From Rhodospirillales bacterium (lineage in GTDB: Bacteria > Pseudomonadota > Alphaproteobacteria > Rhodospirillales > Shumkoniaceae), in assembly GCA_028281785.1 (NCBI GenBank), contig JANQJG010000072.1, positions 1 through 64,000 of the forward strand: a DNA stretch of 64,000 nucleotides, read 5' to 3'. The notes beneath the pieces were generated by a model that saw nothing but the letters and a program-made list of their open reading frames with translations, had not been told where the DNA came from and ran no database searches. This document shows positions 23,181 through 33,702 of this stretch, piece by piece. The position numbers and the translations under genes are program-made. Position 1 is the first letter of the stretch. Each line of letters begins with the position of its first letter.

Positions 23181-23222
23181 TTCATGTCAATACCCTTCTT
23201 TGTCTGTGGAGGACGTAACGCT

Positions 23223-24266
23223 ATGCGCCACCTTATGCTCCGAACCGCGACGCTCGCGGTGGCGTTTGCAGCCGTGAGCGCCTTTTCCGTATCAGCGGCG
23301 GAATTCACCATGAAGCTGGGACACAGCAACCAGCCCGATCCCAAGGATTCGGTCTTTCATGCCTGTGCCCTGAAGTTCGAGGAGCTGCTCGAGAAATATT
23401 CCGAAGGTCGCATCGATGTCGTCATCTTTCCGGCGTTCCAATTGGGAAGCGAGCAGGAGCAGGTGCGCGCGACCCAGCTCGGTACGCAGGAATCGACGAT
23501 CATCTCGACCAACAACCTCAACGTCTTTACCCGCTCGCTGGGCTTTTTAACGCTGCCCTACATTTTCGAGACGGTCGAGGAAGGTCGGAACGTCATCGAC
23601 CAGAGTTGGGACCGGCTTAACGAATGGTCCGTCAAAGAGGCGGGTGTGCGCCTCATCACCGTGATCGACGCGGGTTTCCGTGACCTCACCAATTCCAAGA
23701 AGCCGGTTCGCAATCTCGCCGACCTACAGGACCTCAAGATCCGCGTCCCGCCGAACCCCATCATGATCGCGGCCTTCAAGAGCTGGGACAACGAACCCAT
23801 CCCCATGGCGTGGTCCGAGACCTTCAATGCCCTTCAACAAAAAGTCGTGGATGCCCAGGAGAACCCGATCAACGTGCTTCTGGCCGTGAAGTTCTACGAA
23901 GTGCAGAAGTGGGTCACCGAAATCTCATACGTCTATCAAAGCAACTTCATTGTCGCCTCGGAAGCTTGGCTTCAAAGCCTCCCCAAGGAGCTTCAGGACG
24001 CGGTCGTCCGCGCCGGCAAGGAGACCACCGATTGGGAGCGCGACTACATCGTCAAGACGACCCAGAGCGATATCAAGCGCCTGAAGGAGGACCATGGCAT
24101 CGTTTTCCTCGGCCCGCCCGAGGACAAACCGGAGTGGATCCGTCGCGCCCGTTCCATCTGGCCGGATTTCTATGACTTCATCGGAAACGGCGACGTGGAC
24201 AAGGGCAAGGCGACGGTCGATTACATCGTCTCCCTGACCGAGGAGTTCCGGGCCAAGAACAAGTAG
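23223..24266 (+). CDS. dctP: TRAP transporter substrate-binding protein (DctP)
   Basis: 347 residues. It has a Sec signal peptide (about 1-23, ending FSVSAAEF) and a DctP body with LKLGHSN-like start and DLKIRVPPNPI, which holds the ligand-binding Arg. Periplasmic receptor for an organic acid. The start at 23223 has GGAGG about 11 bases upstream; an upstream ATG at 23184 lies against the palindrome and is unlikely. Its ligand should match the amidase pathway. Confidence 0.93.
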   Translation: MRHLMLRTATLAVAFAAVSAFSVSAAEFTMKLGHSNQPDPKDSVFHACALKFEELLEKYSEGRIDVVIFPAFQLGSEQEQVRATQLGTQESTIISTNNLNVFTRSLGFLTLPYIFETVEEGRNVIDQSWDRLNEWSVKEAGVRLITVIDAGFRDLTNSKKPVRNLADLQDLKIRVPPNPIMIAAFKSWDNEPIPMAWSETFNALQQKVVDAQENPINVLLAVKFYEVQKWVTEISYVYQSNFIVASEAWLQSLPKELQDAVVRAGKETTDWERDYIVKTTQSDIKRLKEDHGIVFLGPPEDKPEWIRRARSIWPDFYDFIGNGDVDKGKATVDYIVSLTEEFRAKNK

Positions 24267-24341
24267 GCCCTTGTATCGGGTGGCGGGCGGATTGAGAATC
24301 TGCCCGCCGTCTACTCCCGTGGGAGATTGCCTATCCGTCCC

Positions 24342-24887
24342 ATGACAAAAGCCCTCCGTCTCCTTGACCGGCATTTCGAAGAAGCGGTCTGCGCCGTTCT
24401 GCTCGTCTTCCTGATGCTTCTGCTGATGATCCAGGTCGTGCTGCGGTACGGCTTCGACATGGCCTGGGCCTGGAACGAGGAGCTGACGCGCTTTTTCTTC
24501 GTGTGGTTCGTCTACCTGGGGGCCAGCCTGGGCGTCCAACGTCAGGGGCACATTCGGGTTCTGACTTTCGTGCTGATACTGCCATCGCCGACCCTGCGCA
24601 GGGTGGCGATGCTCCTCTCCGATGGCTTCTGGCTGATCTTCATGGGACTGATCGTCTATTACAGCTTCGATTTCATGGAGACGATCCTGCGCTTTCCGCA
24701 AGGCTCCGCCGTTCTCGACATTCCCCTCTTCTACGTCTACCTGATCGTGCCCGGCGGCTTCTTCCTCATGATGTTTCGGCTCTCCCAGCTCTATTTGAGG
24801 AGTTGGGGACTCATGGGCGGGGAAACGCCACCGAGCGAAGCGGAAGAGGACAAGTTCGCGACGCCTGAAGGGAGGCGCGCGCCATGA
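24342..24887 (+). CDS. dctQ: TRAP transporter small permease (DctQ)
   Basis: 181 residues with four membrane helices and the DctQ motif WAWNEELTRFFFVWFVYLG. Its stop overlaps the dctM start by 4 bp (ATGA). The start is uncertain: GGGAGA lies at 24321, close to a TTG at 24327 and 16 bases from the ATG at 24342. Confidence 0.9.
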   Translation: MTKALRLLDRHFEEAVCAVLLVFLMLLLMIQVVLRYGFDMAWAWNEELTRFFFVWFVYLGASLGVQRQGHIRVLTFVLILPSPTLRRVAMLLSDGFWLIFMGLIVYYSFDFMETILRFPQGSAVLDIPLFYVYLIVPGGFFLMMFRLSQLYLRSWGLMGGETPPSEAEEDKFATPEGRRAP

Positions 24888-26161
24888 TGCTGACCGCCGT
24901 CTTCGTCTTCTGCCTGGTCCTCGGCATTCCCATCCTGGCAACCATCGGCCTGGCCACGGTCGTGCCTATCCTGGTCGACGGCGGCATTCCAATGACGATG
25001 GTGATCCAGACCCTTTACACCGGGGTGGATCAGTTTCCGCTGATCGCGGTCACCGGCTTCATCCTCGCCGGCGCCCTGATGGGAGCCTGCGGAATCACCG
25101 ACCGAATCGTCGAAGTGGCGTCGAGCATCGTCGGCAACGTGACGGGCGGCCTCGCCGTCGTTACCATCCTCGCCTGCATGTTCTTCGCCGCGATCAGCGG
25201 TTCGGGCCCGGCCACCGTTGCGGCGATCGGCGGCATCATGCTGCCGGGCATGTTCCGGCGAGGCTATGGGCGGGATTTCGGCGGCGCGGTCGCGGCATCG
25301 GGCGGGACCCTAGGCATCCTGATACCGCCCAGTAACCCGATGATCATCTACGGAGTCGTGGCCAGCACCTCGATCACGCAGCTTTTCATGGCCGGGCTCA
25401 TTCCCGGGCTCCTTATCGGGTTCTTGATGATCCTGGCCGCCTATGCCGTATCGCGCAAGCGCGGATATGTGGGCTCGGGCGAAAAGTTCTCGGCGCGCCG
25501 CGCGCTGCACGCCATCAATCGCGGCAAGTGGGCCTTGATGGCGCCCATCATCATTCTCGGGGGGATCTATGCCGGCGTTTTCACGCCCGTGGAGGCCTCC
25601 GCCGTGGCGGTATTTTACGCGCTGTTCGTGGGGACGGTGATCTACCGGGCGCTCACATGGCGGTCGTTTTTCGCATGCCTGCGCACAACCGCGCTGACCT
25701 CGGGCACCGTCCTCGTCATTGTCGGCGTGGCGCTGTCGTTCGGACGCCTTTTGACGATCTATCGCATCCCGGTCATCGTCGCCGAAGGCCTCGGCAGCAT
25801 TTCCTCGGACCCCATCGTTCTGCTGTTCCTGATCGCCGGCTTCCTGATCGTCATCGGCACGTTCATGGAGACCCTGGCCCAGATCATTATCCTGACGCCG
25901 GTTTTCCTGCCCCTCGTGACGAGCCTCGGCATCGATCCCATACATTTCGGGGTGATCTTCGTCATCTGCTGCGAGATCGGTTTCCTGACCCCGCCGCTCG
26001 GGGCCAATCTTTACGTTGCGATGAAGCAGGCGGATATAAGCCTCGAGGCGATCTCGAAGGCTGTTCTTCCTTTCCTTGCCGTACTCGTCGGCGGGCTGGT
26101 GCCGATTATCCTGTTCCCGCAGATCTCCTTGTTCCTCCCCAACCTTCTGATGGGCCGATAG
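24884..26161 (+). CDS. dctM: TRAP transporter large permease (DctM)
   Basis: 425 residues, multi-helix DctM. ISGSGPATVAAIGGIMLPG and GILIPPSNPMIIYG correspond to the conserved transport core; GVFTPVEASAVAVF and GFLTPPLGANLYV are further family segments. GGGAGGCGCGCGCC precedes the ATG. Last gene of the second TRAP operon. Confidence 0.93.
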   Translation: MMLTAVFVFCLVLGIPILATIGLATVVPILVDGGIPMTMVIQTLYTGVDQFPLIAVTGFILAGALMGACGITDRIVEVASSIVGNVTGGLAVVTILACMFFAAISGSGPATVAAIGGIMLPGMFRRGYGRDFGGAVAASGGTLGILIPPSNPMIIYGVVASTSITQLFMAGLIPGLLIGFLMILAAYAVSRKRGYVGSGEKFSARRALHAINRGKWALMAPIIILGGIYAGVFTPVEASAVAVFYALFVGTVIYRALTWRSFFACLRTTALTSGTVLVIVGVALSFGRLLTIYRIPVIVAEGLGSISSDPIVLLFLIAGFLIVIGTFMETLAQIIILTPVFLPLVTSLGIDPIHFGVIFVICCEIGFLTPPLGANLYVAMKQADISLEAISKAVLPFLAVLVGGLVPIILFPQISLFLPNLLMGR

Positions 26162-26228
26162 CCAGGGCCGGACCCATAGTGCATCCTTCTCGCTCAATGA
26201 TGGCAGTCTACCACCACACCATGGGATC

Positions 26229-26243
26229 AAAGGGGGGCCCTTT
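26229..26243 (+). terminator. Weak hairpin after the TRAP operon
   Basis: AAAGGG (26229-26234), loop GGG, CCCTTT (26238-26243), about 70 bp after the dctM stop and before the convergent SorC regulator. No clear T run follows, so termination is only possible, not shown. Confidence 0.3.
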
Positions 26244-26312
26244 AAGACTCAATCGCTTCCACGCTTGAGCGGCCTGTTTTGTATCTGTTCCCCGATGGAC
26301 ATCGCCCCGTCG

Positions 26313-27263
26313 TCACAGGACGTTTCGGGAGAGGAGAGCGTGGGCCGTCGCCTCGTCAGTACCCAGGGAGTTAACGATCCGCCCACGCAAACCGGCGCGT
26401 AGGGCTGGAACCTTGGCCTCGCCATTGGCCACGGCGATACGAAAAGGGATAGATTTCAACTGTGGTAACGTGATGGCCAAGGTGCGAGCGTCGAGCTCGG
26501 AGGGTACGGCGTTGCCCTCTCCGTCATAGAAACGCGCGCAGATGGAGCCAACCGCGCCGAGGGCGCCGACGCCCGCGATCTCGTCGACCGTCACCACGCC
26601 ATGTCTGACGATTGCCGCTTCGGGGGAGATGGCGCCGACCCCGACCAGTGCCACAGAGCATCGACGAATCACCTCAAACGCAGCCCGAACAATCGGCGCG
26701 TCGACGAGCGTCGCGGCCGTTTCATGACAATCGACCATCGCCGGCGCGGGTAATTGCCAAGTGCGCGCGCCAATCCGCATGGCCAACTCACGCGCCACTT
26801 CGTGTGGATGCGTCGGGGCATCCACCATGCCGACGCCGCCGATAAGAGGAACAACCTCAAGCCCGGGCAGGCTCGTCCGGCTCATATGCTGGACAACCGT
26901 GGCAGTGGTCCGACCGTCGGACACTCCGATAACCGTATCGGCGCGCAGGACTGGGGCCAGGAACTCGGCAACCGCGCGACCGAGCCGATGACGGGTTTGA
27001 GCGCCGTCCTCGGCCGTGTGAACGACCACGGCCGACGGAACACCAAACTTTTCCTCGAGGGCGTGTTCGAGGTCGGGCAACCGATCCGACGGCGGAACCA
27101 CTCGGATTTCAACGAAGCCGAGGTCCCGTGCCTGCTTGAGCGCCCGGCTCACGGTAGAGGATGAAATGCCGAGCATGGCCGCGATGTCCTGCTGCGAGCG
27201 CTTTTCCTCGTACCGCATGCGGGCGATGCGGAGAATGACGGAAGGGTCGCGCAGGTTCGCCAT
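26313..27263 (-). CDS. SorC-family sugar-responsive transcriptional regulator
   Basis: 316 residues. An N-terminal HTH (SQQDIAAMLGISSSTVSRAL) is followed by the SorC sugar-binding domain, including GVSDGRTTATVV, a phosphosugar-binding-like segment, and VALVGVGAI. It probably responds to a sugar phosphate of the adjacent sugar module (27.3-32.4 kb). It lies directly after the HPS/epimerase-like remnant on the same strand, so the two may once have been co-transcribed. Confidence 0.9.
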   Translation of the reverse strand: MANLRDPSVILRIARMRYEEKRSQQDIAAMLGISSSTVSRALKQARDLGFVEIRVVPPSDRLPDLEHALEEKFGVPSAVVVHTAEDGAQTRHRLGRAVAEFLAPVLRADTVIGVSDGRTTATVVQHMSRTSLPGLEVVPLIGGVGMVDAPTHPHEVARELAMRIGARTWQLPAPAMVDCHETAATLVDAPIVRAAFEVIRRCSVALVGVGAISPEAAIVRHGVVTVDEIAGVGALGAVGSICARFYDGEGNAVPSELDARTLAITLPQLKSIPFRIAVANGEAKVPALRAGLRGRIVNSLGTDEATAHALLSRNVL

Positions 27264-27273
27264 ATGCGATGTC

Positions 27274-27480
27274 TCAGGAGGTCGACGCGCTGCCCGGATC
27301 GGACATCCGAACTGCCGGGAGAAGGCATCTCAACCTGGGCAGTGTCTTGCCGGGGGGGTTGGCGAAGACAGAGCGTCCGCAAACCACAATGTCGGCGCCT
27401 GAGGCGAATGCGGTCGGAATCGTGTCCTCGTCAAGGCATCCGTCTGCAACGACCACGGCGTCCGAGTACAGGGCTCGATC
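27274..27480 (-). pseudogene. 3' remnant of a ribulose-phosphate-binding barrel gene (HPS/epimerase-like)
   Basis: Reading leftward, the frame gives VVVADGCLDEDTIPTAFA followed by SGADIVVCGRSVFANPP. This is the C-terminal phosphate-binding end of the 3-hexulose-6-phosphate synthase / ribulose-phosphate 3-epimerase barrel family (pattern V-x-G-G-x-x-x-x-T-I-P ... GADI-x-V-x-G). Upstream the frame loses similarity at about 27460-27480, where the opposite-strand FGGY-kinase sequence begins. Roughly the first two thirds of the gene are missing. HPS is the better fit because a PHI-like gene is present at 28905. Confidence 0.5.
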
Positions 27481-27986
27481 TGACCGGAGAACGGTCGCCC
27501 CACGCCGATCCAGAGGCGCGAGGCTGTTGGTTCGGTCTCACGACCCGGCACAATCGCCACCACCTCGCTCGGGCGGTGGTCGAGGGCGTATGCTTTGCCT
27601 TGCGCGATTTGGTTGAAGTCGCTCTTGATCTCGATGTTGAGGTGGGGGAAATCCGCGTCGCCGGCGGCGGGGCGCGAGACGTGGTCTGGCTGCAAACACT
27701 GGCGGATGTCCTGGGCCGGCCCGTTCGCGCGGCGTTGACCCCGGATGCCTCGCCTTACGGGGCCGCGGCTTTGGCCATGGCCGCGGTGACAGAGAGGAAT
27801 GTGGCCCCCCTCGCCGCGGCTTGGTCCCGTCAGGGGCCGGAGGTGGAACCAAATCCCCAGGTCGTCGACGCTTACTCCGACCAATACGAGGCATTCCGGG
27901 CCCTTTATCCGGCGACTCGAACACTCATGCATGATCTCGCCGCGCTCGAACGACGGGCCGACGACCGGGAGGCGGAGGTGTCATGA
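27471..27986 (+). pseudogene. 3' remnant of an FGGY-family sugar kinase (xylulokinase-like)
   Basis: From about 27471 the frame reads LTGERSPHADPEARGCWFGL, then HLARAVVEGVCFALRD, a glycine-rich GGGARDVVWLQTLADVLG and AALTPDASPYGAAALA. These are the C-terminal FGGY domain of a xylulokinase-like protein. The N-terminal domain and about 300 residues are absent; the open frame to 27264 encodes unrelated arginine-rich sequence. Its stop overlaps the next gene by 4 bp (27983-27986), the relic of tight operon coupling. Confidence 0.75.
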
Positions 27987-28912
27987 CCGAAATCGCCCTT
28001 AAAACAGCGGCGGTTACCTCGCTGCTCAAGTATTACCCTCTGCCGGAGGCGCTCTCCGTCATCGCGGAAGCCGGATATGACGGCGTCGAGCTGTGGGGAG
28101 GTCTTCCGCACGGCTACGTGGATGATTTCTACGAGGATGGGTGCCTCGACGCGGGCGTGGTCGCCGCCTGCCGACGCCTCGTCGAGAAGTCGGGACTGAC
28201 GCCGGTTGCCTTCCTTCCGGAGCAGTGCTTCTACCCGGTGAACTACCTCATCGACACGGCGCCGCCCTTTGATGGAGAGCGGCTCAGGACGCGGAGCGTC
28301 GCTTACTTCGAACGCGGCATCGAAGTGGCTGCGGCGCTCGAATTCCCTTTGATGGTTCTCACCACGCCATTCTGGGGGTGGCGACAGACTCGCGAGAGGT
28401 TCGTTTTCGACGCGGATAAAGTTCTCGATCGAGTGATCGACACCGTCGGCCGTTTGACGCGCTGCGCGGAGCGTCACGGTTTGGTGCTGGTCCTGGAGCC
28501 CTTGACCGACCTTGAGACCACCTCCGTGGAAACGCTCGATGACCTGGTTGCCGTCCTCGACGGGGTTGGCTCGCCCGCACTGGCTGCCATGCTTGATGTC
28601 GGCCATGTGAATGTCACGGCGCGGCGCTTGGGTATCGATGCCGCCGGGTACTTTCTCGACCATGTGGAAAAGCTCGGTGATCGCCTGCGCCATGTGCATG
28701 TGAACGACAATGCCGGCGACAGCGACGCGCATCTTCTGCCGGGAGAGGGAACGTTCGATTTTGCGACCGCCTGTCGTGCCCTGAAGGCGGCCGGATACAG
28801 CGGATATCTCTCGGCCGAGATCATGATGTTCGGGCCTAACCCCGTTCCTCCGAATCCGGCCGGGGTACTCGCCCGAACTCTCGAACACGTGCGGAGGACT
28901 TGGCATGGCTGA
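27983..28912 (+). CDS. Sugar-phosphate isomerase/epimerase (xylose-isomerase-like TIM barrel)
   Basis: 309 residues. TIM barrel of the AP-endonuclease-2/tagatose-epimerase superfamily, with metal-ligand segments VLVLEPLTD, MLDVGHVN, LRHVHVNDN and LSAEIMM. Probably interconverts a ketose or ketose phosphate (D-tagatose/psicose 3-epimerase or hydroxypyruvate-isomerase-like). It overlaps the FGGY remnant by 4 bp and the SIS gene by 8 bp. Confidence 0.85.
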   Translation: MTEIALKTAAVTSLLKYYPLPEALSVIAEAGYDGVELWGGLPHGYVDDFYEDGCLDAGVVAACRRLVEKSGLTPVAFLPEQCFYPVNYLIDTAPPFDGERLRTRSVAYFERGIEVAAALEFPLMVLTTPFWGWRQTRERFVFDADKVLDRVIDTVGRLTRCAERHGLVLVLEPLTDLETTSVETLDDLVAVLDGVGSPALAAMLDVGHVNVTARRLGIDAAGYFLDHVEKLGDRLRHVHVNDNAGDSDAHLLPGEGTFDFATACRALKAAGYSGYLSAEIMMFGPNPVPPNPAGVLARTLEHVRRTWHG

Positions 28913-29459
28913 TAACGCGCATTCGGAAGTGGCTTCCGAGATCGCGCGTCATGCGCCGCTCCTGCCGGTCGGCCGTCTGGACGAACTTCTCCGTGCCGTT
29001 ACAAGCGCGGATCGTGTGTTTGTCTGCGCGGTTGGGCGCTGTGGTCTGGTGCTCAAGATGTTCGCAACGCGGCTCGCCCAACTCGGCATTCGCTGCTACG
29101 TCGCCGGTGATCTGACGACACCGTCGATCGGCGATGGCGATGTCCTGATTGCCGCTTCGGGCTCGGGGGTGACGCCGACGGTCGTGCTTCTGGCGTCCCG
29201 GGCCCGCATGTTCGGCGCCAAGGTGATCGGCTTGTCCGCTCATGAGGACGCGGAGTTTGCTCGTAACGTGGACTCGGTCATCACGCTACCCGTTCCCGCT
29301 AAAACGGATCCGATAGACCGAAAGCAATCCGTACAGCCGCCCGGATCGCTCTTCGAGCAACTCCTTCTGTGCTTTCTAGAGGAGGCAATACTTCGACTCG
29401 CGCGCGAGCAAGACGAGGGGTTTCAGACGATACGAAGCCGGCACGCGAACCTCGAATGA
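28905..29459 (+). CDS. SIS-domain sugar isomerase, 6-phospho-3-hexuloisomerase-like
   Basis: 184 residues, the size of HxlB/PHI. A single SIS domain includes VGRCGLVLKMFATRLAQLG (GRSG in most homologues), ASGSGVTPTVV and the C-terminal PPGSLFEQLLLCFLEEA, which is characteristic of PHI. PHI converts 3-hexulose-6-phosphate to fructose-6-phosphate. Its normal partner synthase is represented only by the truncated remnant at 27274-27480. It overlaps the preceding epimerase gene. Confidence 0.82.
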   Translation: MADNAHSEVASEIARHAPLLPVGRLDELLRAVTSADRVFVCAVGRCGLVLKMFATRLAQLGIRCYVAGDLTTPSIGDGDVLIAASGSGVTPTVVLLASRARMFGAKVIGLSAHEDAEFARNVDSVITLPVPAKTDPIDRKQSVQPPGSLFEQLLLCFLEEAILRLAREQDEGFQTIRSRHANLE

Positions 29460-29522
29460 CCGCCGTGTCCTTTGTCGCGGGCGCGGCGGTTTGGTCCACG
29501 ATCAACAGGGAGAACAGGATCG

Positions 29523-30581
29523 ATGAAACGTCGAGATATTCTGAGAAGCGCAGTGACGGCGGCAGCCGTCGCCGCTTTCCTGGCTTCGGTCGCATCGCCG
29601 GCCGCGGCCCAGACTCAGTTGCCGGATCGCGAGATCCGGATCGGGTTCGCCGCCCACAGCATCGACTTGCAGGCGCTGTTCGGGCAATTGCGAGAAGGGT
29701 TCAAGAGCCACCTGAGTGAGGCCGGTCTCAAATACAAGCTCTTCGAAGCCGCGCCCGACACGAGTTCGAATCATGCCCAGATGGTCCAGAATCTTGAGAA
29801 CTTCGCGACCATGCAGCTCGACTATGTTCTTGTCGGGCCAACCTCGCTGGAGCTCAATGAGCCCGGCCTCATGGCCGTCCGGGACTCCGGGGCCAAGATC
29901 CTCATGACGGACTATGAGCGCCCGAAGGAAGGGGTGCCCTATGACGATGCGGTACTCAACTGGGTCGTCTATAGCCATGACGAAATGGGCTACAAAGCTG
30001 GCGAGTGGCTTGCCCATCATTTCCGCGCGAAGGGAGTCTTTCAGCCGAGAATCGTCATGCTGTGGGGACCTGCGGCGTCCGAGATCTCCGAGGCACGCGG
30101 CGGCGGCGTACTTCGCGCCCTGAAGGAAGCAAAGGATCTCGAATTAAAAGTAGTCTATGAGGCTTATGCCAACTTCAACCGAGAACTTGCTTACAACGAA
30201 ACGGAACGCGCTCTCGCCGCCCACAGCTTTGATGCCGTCGTCGGCCTGAACAGCTACATGGCGGTCTCGGCCAAGGACGCGTTGCTGGCCAACGGCAAGA
30301 AGCCGGGCGAAATCACCGTTGTCGGCATGGGAGGGACGATCGACGAGCTGCAGGCAGTGGCGCTCGGCGAAATCGGTGTTGCGCCCTTCCGTGATCCGCG
30401 TTCCATGGGCCGCGCCTCTGCCGAGGCCCTGCTCATGCATCTGACAGGTAATGAGGGTACCATCGAAAAGACGGTGTACGCGGACATCCCGGTCTGTGAC
30501 GCCGCCTACCGCATCGCCAAGTACGTGCCCGCAGAGATGTTCGACGTCAACGCCTTCCTTTTGAAACACTACGGTCGTTGA
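29523..30581 (+). CDS. Sugar ABC transporter substrate-binding protein (ribose/fructose type)
   Basis: 352 residues. A signal peptide with twin Arg (KRRDILRSAV) runs to about residue 30 (PAAAQ). The periplasmic-binding-protein fold belongs to the RbsB/LacI-like class (KIRIGFAAH-like start, LVGPTSLEL, VVGLNSYMAVSA). Binds a monosaccharide for the following single-domain ATPase and permease. AGGGAGAACAGG precedes the ATG. Confidence 0.9.
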   Translation: MKRRDILRSAVTAAAVAAFLASVASPAAAQTQLPDREIRIGFAAHSIDLQALFGQLREGFKSHLSEAGLKYKLFEAAPDTSSNHAQMVQNLENFATMQLDYVLVGPTSLELNEPGLMAVRDSGAKILMTDYERPKEGVPYDDAVLNWVVYSHDEMGYKAGEWLAHHFRAKGVFQPRIVMLWGPAASEISEARGGGVLRALKEAKDLELKVVYEAYANFNRELAYNETERALAAHSFDAVVGLNSYMAVSAKDALLANGKKPGEITVVGMGGTIDELQAVALGEIGVAPFRDPRSMGRASAEALLMHLTGNEGTIEKTVYADIPVCDAAYRIAKYVPAEMFDVNAFLLKHYGR

Positions 30582-30661
30582 CATCGCCACTAGTCCGAGG
30601 GCGGGCCGGTCGCGCGCCCTCGGAACCCTTCGACGGGTAGGGCTTCGACAGGATATCCGTG

Positions 30662-31420
30662 ATGCTTGAGAAGAATTCACAGCTCCTGCAGGTCATTCAC
30701 CTGCGCAAGAACTTTGGCGCCATCCAGGCCGTCAAGGATGTGAGCTTCGACATCGCACCCGCCGAGATCGTGGCGATCGTCGGCGACAACGGGGCCGGCA
30801 AGTCGACGGTCGCCAAGGTGATCTCCGGAGCGTATCGGCGGGATGGTGGCGAGATGCTGTGGAACGGCGGTCCTTACGAACCGCATGAGCCGGACGACGC
30901 GCGCGACATCGGTATCGAGACCATGTACCAAGATCTCGCCCTGGTGAACGACCTGGATGCCGCCGGCAACATCTTCCTCAACCGGGAACCGACGCGGCGC
31001 CTGTTCCGGTTTCTACCTCTCCTGGATCACAAACAGATGCGAGAACGCTCGGCGGAACTGCTCCGCCGGGTCAAGATCGAGTTACCGTCCTACGATCGTC
31101 CCGTGCGGCAGCTTTCCGGCGGCCAGCGACAAGCCACGGCTATCGGCCGCATACTTCTGTCGGAGCGTGCCCGTTTGATCATTATGGATGAGCCGACGGC
31201 TGCCCTTGGCGTCCAGGAGCAGCGCAAGGTTCTGGAACTGATTCGCAATCTGAGCGACCACGGCATGGCCGTGATGATCATCAGCCACAATCTGGAGCAT
31301 GTCTTCACCGTCTCTCAGCGCGTCATTGTGCTGCGTGGTGGCGAGGTGGCCGGAATCGTGTCCACCGCTGAGGTGCAGAAGCAGGACGTGGTGAGCTTAA
31401 TCATGGGAGGGGGCGCCTGA
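30662..31420 (+). CDS. Sugar ABC transporter ATP-binding protein (FrcA-like, single domain)
   Basis: 252 residues. Walker A GDNGAGKST, Q-loop MYQDLAL, signature LSGGQRQ, Walker B LIIMDEP and H-loop ISHNL are all present. One nucleotide-binding domain only, unlike the duplicated RbsA/XylG type, so it resembles rhizobial FrcA. A GTG directly before the ATG (30659) is an alternative start. It is followed 1 bp later by the permease. Confidence 0.93.
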   Translation: MLEKNSQLLQVIHLRKNFGAIQAVKDVSFDIAPAEIVAIVGDNGAGKSTVAKVISGAYRRDGGEMLWNGGPYEPHEPDDARDIGIETMYQDLALVNDLDAAGNIFLNREPTRRLFRFLPLLDHKQMRERSAELLRRVKIELPSYDRPVRQLSGGQRQATAIGRILLSERARLIIMDEPTAALGVQEQRKVLELIRNLSDHGMAVMIISHNLEHVFTVSQRVIVLRGGEVAGIVSTAEVQKQDVVSLIMGGGA

Positions 31421-31421
31421 C

Positions 31422-32417
31422 ATGACCGGCCTCAATACCGATCTGAGCCCCATGCGCGGCGTTGGTTCCGGAGCCATGAGGGCAATCGGCGGCATCAATC
31501 CGCTCGTCATCGCTCTCGTGATCCTATATGTCGCGATCATCTTTTGGAGCGACCGATTCCTCGCGATTTCCAATCAGATGAACATCACCCGGCAGGTGGC
31601 GGTCTATCTCATCATCGCCATGGGCCAGACATTCGTCATCTCCAGCCGGGGGATCGACCTTTCGGTGGGGTCGGTGCTCGGTTTCGTCGGCTGCGTTGTG
31701 GCCCGGATGATCGACGCGGGCACGCCGGTGCCGATCGGGATCGCTACCGGGATCGTGCTTGGCACGGCCTTCGGAACGATCAACGGACTTGTCATTACCA
31801 AGCTCAAGGTGAATCCCCTGATCGCCACCCTCGGCATGCTCGTCGCGCTCCGCGGCCTCACCCACATCCTGATGGGGAGTACCGCCGTCACCCGCCTTCC
31901 TTCCAGCCTTGTCTTCCTCGGCCAAGGCTTCGTGGGTCCGGTACCCATGCCGGCGATTATCTCTCTTTGCGTGGTCGTCATCTGTTGGTGGCTCTACTAC
32001 CACACGCGCTTCGGGCGCTACACGGTGTCCATCGGGTCCAACGAAGATGCGTGCGGCTTGGCCGGTATCCATGTTGACCGGCAGAAAATCCTTATCTACG
32101 CCTTCCAGGGCGCGTGCGTGGGACTCGCGGCCACTCTTCTCGTCGGACGCCTGAATGCGGCCTCGCCTGATCTCGGTCTGAACTATGAGCTGCATATCAT
32201 TGCGGCGGTCGTATTGGGCGGCACCGCTCTCTATGGAGGGCTTGGAACGATTTTCGGCACGGTCCTGGGAATCTTCACCATAGGAGTCATCGAGAACGGC
32301 ATGGTTCTGGTAGGCGCCAACTTCCACGTTCAGCGGGTGCTGATCGGAACCCTGCTGGTGGCGGCGGTTGCATATCAGGAGTATCGGCGCCGACAGTTGG
32401 AGAGACGTGTCGTCTAA
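31422..32417 (+). CDS. Sugar ABC transporter permease (RbsC/FrcC family)
   Basis: 331 residues, about ten hydrophobic segments, with the family motif ISSRGIDLSVGSVLGFVG and AAVVLGGTALYGGLGTIFG. Inner-membrane channel for the monosaccharide importer. Last gene of the operon. Confidence 0.93.
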   Translation: MTGLNTDLSPMRGVGSGAMRAIGGINPLVIALVILYVAIIFWSDRFLAISNQMNITRQVAVYLIIAMGQTFVISSRGIDLSVGSVLGFVGCVVARMIDAGTPVPIGIATGIVLGTAFGTINGLVITKLKVNPLIATLGMLVALRGLTHILMGSTAVTRLPSSLVFLGQGFVGPVPMPAIISLCVVVICWWLYYHTRFGRYTVSIGSNEDACGLAGIHVDRQKILIYAFQGACVGLAATLLVGRLNAASPDLGLNYELHIIAAVVLGGTALYGGLGTIFGTVLGIFTIGVIENGMVLVGANFHVQRVLIGTLLVAAVAYQEYRRRQLERRVV

Positions 32418-32748
32418 GACAATGGGCGTAGGCGAGGACATCGCCGTGAGCCCGCCCATCTTGTGTCTGCGTTTTGGTGTACAGCGCGGGTCCGGGGGAT
32501 CGCCGATCCCCAGGCGCGGCCGGGAGCCCGTCCCAGAGCACTATGTCTTTAGGTATGCTCACCCAAGGAACGGAATCGAACCAATCGAGGACAAACTCTG
32601 CGGTTTTGACCTGAAGCCGAAGTGTCCATCGACGCAGTGATTGACATAATCACCAGGTTAATACTTACGTTAAGGCGCAATTGCCTGTACCCTGGGCAAA
32701 TGCTTGCCAAACCATCGGCACGCAACTCAAACCGACCAGAAGTCAGCA
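32418..32748. other. Intergenic region before the polyol regulator, no gene recognised
   Basis: About 330 bp. Short open frames only. The stretch 32565-32595 resembles a tRNA T-arm at first sight but does not fold into a tRNA. Confidence 0.5.
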
Positions 32749-33702
32749 ATGCCAAGGCACAACGAAACCGGTTCAAGCCGTATCGACGACGCGGCCAGAG
32801 CCGCGTGGCTCTATTACATCGCGGACAACACGCAGGACGAGATTGCCGAGAAGATGGGAATATCCCGGCAATCGGCGCAACGCCTTGTCGCGCTCGCCAC
32901 ACGTAAACGCCTTGTCAAATTCCGGCTGGACCATCCCATCGCGCGGTGCATGGACCTGGCACAGCGCCTAAAAGATCGTTATGGGTTGGACTTCTGCGAG
33001 GTGACGCTGGCCGACCCGACGTCGGACGATCCGGCCTTGGGAATCGCACAGGTCGCGGCGACCGAAATGGAAAGATTCCTCAAGGCCGAAGAGCCCATCG
33101 TCATGGCCTTAGGGACCGGAAAGGAAATTCGTGGGGCGGTGGACCAGGTGTCGCCGATCTGCTGCCCGCACCACAAGTTCGTCTCCCTGGTCGGCAGCCT
33201 GGCGCCCGACGGCTCGGCCAACTTCAACGATCCCATCACCCGCATCGGCGATCTTACCCAGGCACCGCGTCATCCCTTGGCGGTGCCCGTGGTTGCGACC
33301 ACAAAGGACGAGCGCGACACGCTTTGTGCCCAGAAACCTATCCGCATCAATATCACCATGGCACAGTCCGCCGACGTTGCATTTGTCGGGATCGGTGAAC
33401 TCAACGAGGCGCCGCCCCTGTTGACCGACGGGTTCATCACTCGGCAGGAACTCGATGACCTGACAGCCGCGGGAGGTGCCGGAGAAATCATCGGATGGGC
33501 TTATGACGACCAAGGTGTCCTGATCTCCGGCCAAACCAATGACCGCGTGGCAAGCGTCCCACTGCGCCAACCGCCCGAACATCCCACTATTGGCGTGGCA
33601 CGTGGGCCGAACAAGCTTCGCGCCATTCGTGGCGCCCTCGCCGGCCGCTGGATCACGGGCCTCATCACGGACGAGACGACGGCGGACGTCTTGCTTAGTT
33701 GA
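32749..33702 (+). CDS. SorC/DeoR-type regulator of the polyol operon
   Basis: 317 residues. An HTH (TQDEIAEKMGISRQSAQRLV) precedes a SorC sugar-binding domain (VMALGTGKEIRGAVDQV, DVAFVGIGELNEAPPL). It precedes the smoEFGK-type operon in the same direction, as the smoC regulator does in Rhodobacter sphaeroides. The start at 32749 gives the family length; a TTG at 32704 is also in frame. Confidence 0.88.
   Translation: MPRHNETGSSRIDDAARAAWLYYIADNTQDEIAEKMGISRQSAQRLVALATRKRLVKFRLDHPIARCMDLAQRLKDRYGLDFCEVTLADPTSDDPALGIAQVAATEMERFLKAEEPIVMALGTGKEIRGAVDQVSPICCPHHKFVSLVGSLAPDGSANFNDPITRIGDLTQAPRHPLAVPVVATTKDERDTLCAQKPIRINITMAQSADVAFVGIGELNEAPPLLTDGFITRQELDDLTAAGGAGEIIGWAYDDQGVLISGQTNDRVASVPLRQPPEHPTIGVARGPNKLRAIRGALAGRWITGLITDETTADVLLS

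Follow-up and report, generated by a model that had tools for sequence, protein, structure and literature searches.

A probable single deletion joins the 3' remnants of a divergent rpe-like and FGGY kinase gene pair in a Rhodospirillales sugar locus

In the window (the whole stretch of DNA analysed here, 64,000 nucleotides), the 3' ends of two oppositely oriented genes lie back to back, upstream of a conserved set of sugar utilization genes (Table 1). A single deletion of about 1.66 kb within the ancestral locus very probably made both pseudogene remnants. The two remnants abut, no inserted DNA was found at their junction and comparison with relatives gives a single gap, so that one deletion accounts for the whole structure.

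Table 1. Features at and around the deletion junction (positions in the window).
Feature	Position	Strand	Basis
SorC/DeoR-family sugar-binding transcriptional regulator, intact	26313..27263	-	PF04198 E 1.1e-67; 69% identity to L028 4709-5644 minus
Rpe/AlsE-like gene (ribulose-phosphate 3-epimerase family), 3' remnant of ~65 codons	27274..27474	-	54% identity to L028 protein; aligned start residue 178
Deletion junction	27473..27476		0 to ~5 bp belong clearly to neither side; DNA alignment to L028
FGGY sugar kinase gene (XylB-like), 3' remnant of 169 codons + stop	27477..27986	+	PF02782 positions 94-197; 69% identity to L028
Xylose-isomerase-like TIM-barrel sugar epimerase, intact	27983..28912	+	PF01261 E 1.4e-37; 75% identity to L028 8001-8924
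SIS-domain 6-phospho-3-hexuloisomerase (HxlB) family protein, intact	28905..29459	+	TIGR03127 E 5.8e-49, above cut-off
Sugar ABC transporter substrate-binding protein, intact	29472..30581	+	PF13407 E 3.6e-30; 80% identity to L028
Single-domain sugar ABC transporter ATPase, intact	30659..31420	+	PF00005 E 5.4e-27; 82% identity to L028
Sugar ABC transporter permease, intact	31422..32417	+	PF02653 E 1.3e-41; 86% identity to L028

Results

Two 3' remnants point away from a common junction

Both strands of 27264-27990 were read. The last codons of the leftward frame read ALYSDAVVVADGCLDEDTIPTAFASGADIVVCGRSVFANPPGKT, with a stop at 27274-27276. The minus-strand frame 27489-27319 was 54% identical (E 4.2e-13) to residues 173-229 of a 235-aa rpe-like protein encoded at the intact locus L028 (see below); taken alone, the remnant gave weak family matches only (Rpe model, E 0.002). 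The intact L028 protein belongs to the ribulose-phosphate 3-epimerase / D-allulose-6-phosphate 3-epimerase family (PF00834, E 9e-40) and also matches Rpe structures; it falls under the NCBIfam equivalog cut-offs for both Rpe and AlsE. A reading made from the sequence only had called this end HPS/epimerase-like. The epimerase C-terminal remnant is real, but the HPS (hexulose-6-phosphate synthase) identity was rejected, the intact relatives being PF00834 Rpe-family proteins. Rpe enzymes require N-terminal metal-site motifs. The window retains the end of the protein only, from residue ~178 of 235; the complete barrel with these motifs is absent, and the L028 motifs FHLDVMDG (residue 48) and VHLMV (82) both lie inside the lost part. 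Because its N-terminal motifs are lost, the rpe-like remnant is most likely inactive.

The rightward frame from 27477 reads DLTGERSPHADPEARGCWFGLTTRH and ends with a stop at 27984-27986. Here the proposed FGGY-kinase C-terminus was borne out: the plus-strand frame 27471-27986 matched FGGY_C (PF02782, E 4.3e-26), over profile positions 94-197 of 198 only. Against the L028 kinase (513 aa), it aligned over 166 aa with residues 346-511 at 69% identity (E 1.4e-64). The intact L028 kinase is of the XylB-type xylulokinases (FGGY family; PDB 2itm, 5vm1), clearing the TIGR01312 cut-off with 493.8 vs 380.25 bits, whereas the window has the last 169 residues only. FGGY kinase function requires both domains. 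The window has neither FGGY_N nor the first half of FGGY_C, and the L028 motifs DVGTSSLKG (residue 8) and GGADQ (232) are inside the lost part. As judged from this loss of the whole N-terminal domain, the kinase remnant is most likely inactive.

The open frame of the kinase remnant nevertheless reaches upstream to 27264 (240 aa) and shows no clear decay, and its TGA overlaps the epimerase ATG (ATGA at 27983). These features would suit a C-terminal fragment that is retained, either because it still functions as a short protein or because it acts as a leader coupling translation to that of the epimerase. We regard such a role as very improbable: the fragment lacks both the N-terminal kinase domain and the active-site region with GGADQ, the open frame's upstream stretch runs antisense to the rpe-like remnant, and recency of the deletion explains the absent decay equally well.

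Four relatives keep the intact divergent pair

We scanned public genomes, which included no second member of the window's genus, with the neighbouring epimerase (27983-28912) and found four loci with 60-75% identity: L028 (Rhodospirillales MAG51), L029 (Alphaproteobacteria PL25a_bin.146), and L030 and L031 (both Pelagibacterium). In all four, the rpe-like gene and the kinase gene are full-length and divergent between the same neighbours, with sorC and the rpe-like gene leftward (the regulator sitting just behind the rpe-like gene) and the FGGY kinase, epimerase, hxlB-like, substrate-binding protein, ATPase and permease genes rightward. In L028, 98 bp separate the starts of the rpe-like and kinase genes. 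Further searches of relatives yielded no additional independent intact locus: a genome of the same family as the window genome (G004) carries the L028 locus with a 100% identical kinase, and a second hit (G344, 65%) looks like L029. No plasmid-borne relatives were found.

Order and orientation of the shared genes are the same in the window, which, unlike these loci, is without a 1.66-1.72 kb block that covers the promoter region and the 5' parts of the divergent genes on either side of it. As mapped by protein alignment, one continuous block of 1661, 1716, 1674 and 1670 bp is missing relative to L028, L029, L030 and L031, respectively; against all four it takes in three parts, namely 75% of the rpe-like gene, about two thirds of the kinase gene and, between them, the promoter/operator region. 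Relative to L028, 177 of 235 rpe-like residues and 344 of 513 kinase residues are lost, more than half of each gene, which corrects the earlier proposal of two missing 5' halves; the shared promoter region has gone, as was proposed. Across the four relatives the cut fell near rpe residue 178-180 and kinase residue 332-345, except for the rpe figure of 213 in L031, whose gene start was probably over-called.

At the DNA level, homology to L028 stops at window position 27472 (L028 5831) and restarts at 27478 (L028 7496), while protein-level alignment places the junction between 27474 and 27477. The sequence-only reading had the two ends meeting at 27460-27475; the near-direct abutment stands, and the junction itself lies at the right edge of that range. 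The two sides have at most a few bases in common at the join. A repeat-mediated deletion was rejected, as we found no direct repeat shared by the two L028 breakpoints, none around the scar and no long one at the junction. Two or more separate events, either independent truncations or an insertion later excised, could have left the same end-state, with which the up to ~5 unassigned bp at the junction are compatible; this is, however, highly unlikely, since the cut points of both genes abut directly, no insertion-sequence remnant, target duplication or extra DNA was found at the scar, and one event is simpler. The relatives' intact locus, the single gap, the collinear flanks and an assembly in which the lost parts occur nowhere else all support the one internal deletion in a divergent pair that had been proposed from the sequence.

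The lost parts are absent from the rest of the assembly

The window genome is a draft of 254 contigs, 97.5% complete. Orthologues of the lost rpe-like and kinase parts were not found elsewhere in these 254 contigs; the best matches were paralogues, a kinase (41%) on contig C170 and an Rpe (36%) on contig C161, and near-complete members of the family also hold a kinase that scores about as the C170 paralogue against the query. That the missing block had been relocated or inverted was rejected on the same ground, the block not being found in the genome. The junction sequence occurs only once in the genome, and the longest exact chance match elsewhere is 17 bp. As the flanks of the scar are collinear with L028, the contig was not joined from unrelated pieces.

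These data also bear on an assembly artefact, in which the strain would retain both genes and the assembler, a chimeric read or a strain mixture would have joined points 1.7 kb apart. The draft state of the genome leaves room for this, and a kinase remnant without clear decay is what would be expected were the gene intact in the real cell. We nonetheless consider an artefact unlikely: the junction is unique, its sides have too few bases in common to offer a repeat to collapse, the missing block is on no other contig, and the flanks are collinear with relatives.

The deletion is likely recent

All 169 codons of the kinase remnant could be aligned with L028, and no gap, stop or frameshift interrupts them. 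Differences from L028 at the three codon positions were 0.21/0.22/0.62 for the remnant, compared with 0.18-0.28/0.07-0.19/0.50-0.60 for the neighbouring genes; the slightly high second-position value could hint at relaxed constraint, and proves nothing. In relative-rate tests of the kinase remnant with three outgroups (chi-square 3.56, 0.73 and 0.05), the window branch did not carry significantly more changes. Since the remnant is without stop or frameshift, the deletion is likely recent when measured against the divergence from the nearest relative. The dating is weak and loosely bounded, because in simulation the remnant stayed stop-free in ~5% of runs at ~0.3 neutral substitutions per site.

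The presumed control region between the divergent genes is gone

In the relatives, the intergenic region lost from the window is AT-rich, with 58-65% in the richest 60-bp segment, compared with 28-48% around the scar. TGCAA/TTGCA elements cluster in it (L029:6319-6360, L030:6451-6483 and L031:6448-6480), exemplified by TGCAATAAATTCCATAATGCAAAAAATTGCAG in L031, which could be a candidate SorC-type operator. No TGCAA-type operator-like element was found at the window scar. The sequence-only reading had suggested that the downstream sugar operon may have lost its original promoter, which is reasonable. The leftward sorC regulator, on which that reading was silent, also lost its upstream region; given that the divergent intergenic region is deleted, both operons, sorC's own included, have probably lost their promoter. 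Positions 26200-30700 were scanned with the sigma-70 consensus for a substitute promoter; there were 0 matches vs 0.8 expected by shuffles, and with an expectation of only 0.8 the scan tells nothing on this point.

The genes downstream of the scar are all still open and conserved. The hxlB-like product is 62% identical to that of L028, and the true start of the substrate-binding protein is probably the ATG near 29523. The ATPase (253 aa) is a single-domain form of the usually two-domain RbsA/XylG type, with a full-length match in each of L028-L031; presumably it resembles rhizobial FrcA. A second SorC/DeoR-family regulator gene (32704-33702) follows the operon and has no orthologous match adjoining the L028 permease. 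On the other side, a rightward TRAP transporter set (23184-26161; binding protein, small and large permease) converges on sorC and is unmatched in the L028 locus.

Discussion

The ancestral locus would have had the arrangement sorC <- rpe-like | FGGY kinase -> epimerase -> hxlB-like -> ABC transporter. A deletion of ~1.66 kb would then have taken the 5' parts of both divergent genes together with the control region between them, and the two 3' remnants would have fused without inserted DNA. As to the origin, our guess is illegitimate recombination that used little or no microhomology. A literature search on such scars found nothing.

The event is well supported as ordinary gene loss and decay by deletion. 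It is very doubtful that the deletion was selected, with removal of the SorC-controlled divergent promoter rewiring the epimerase, hxlB-like and transporter genes to other regulation, so that these intact genes would now serve a pathway with a different kinase. As for the sugar pathway, it has probably been switched off, is transcribed weakly through read-through or relies on another kinase.

Altogether, the locus offers a cleanly resolved loss, in which two pathway genes were knocked out and, as we infer, two divergent operons were deprived of their control region at the same time. For annotation, the window genome should not be credited with the kinase, the rpe-like epimerase or a working version of the sugar pathway. 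The regulator and transporter genes that remain may be heading for decay.
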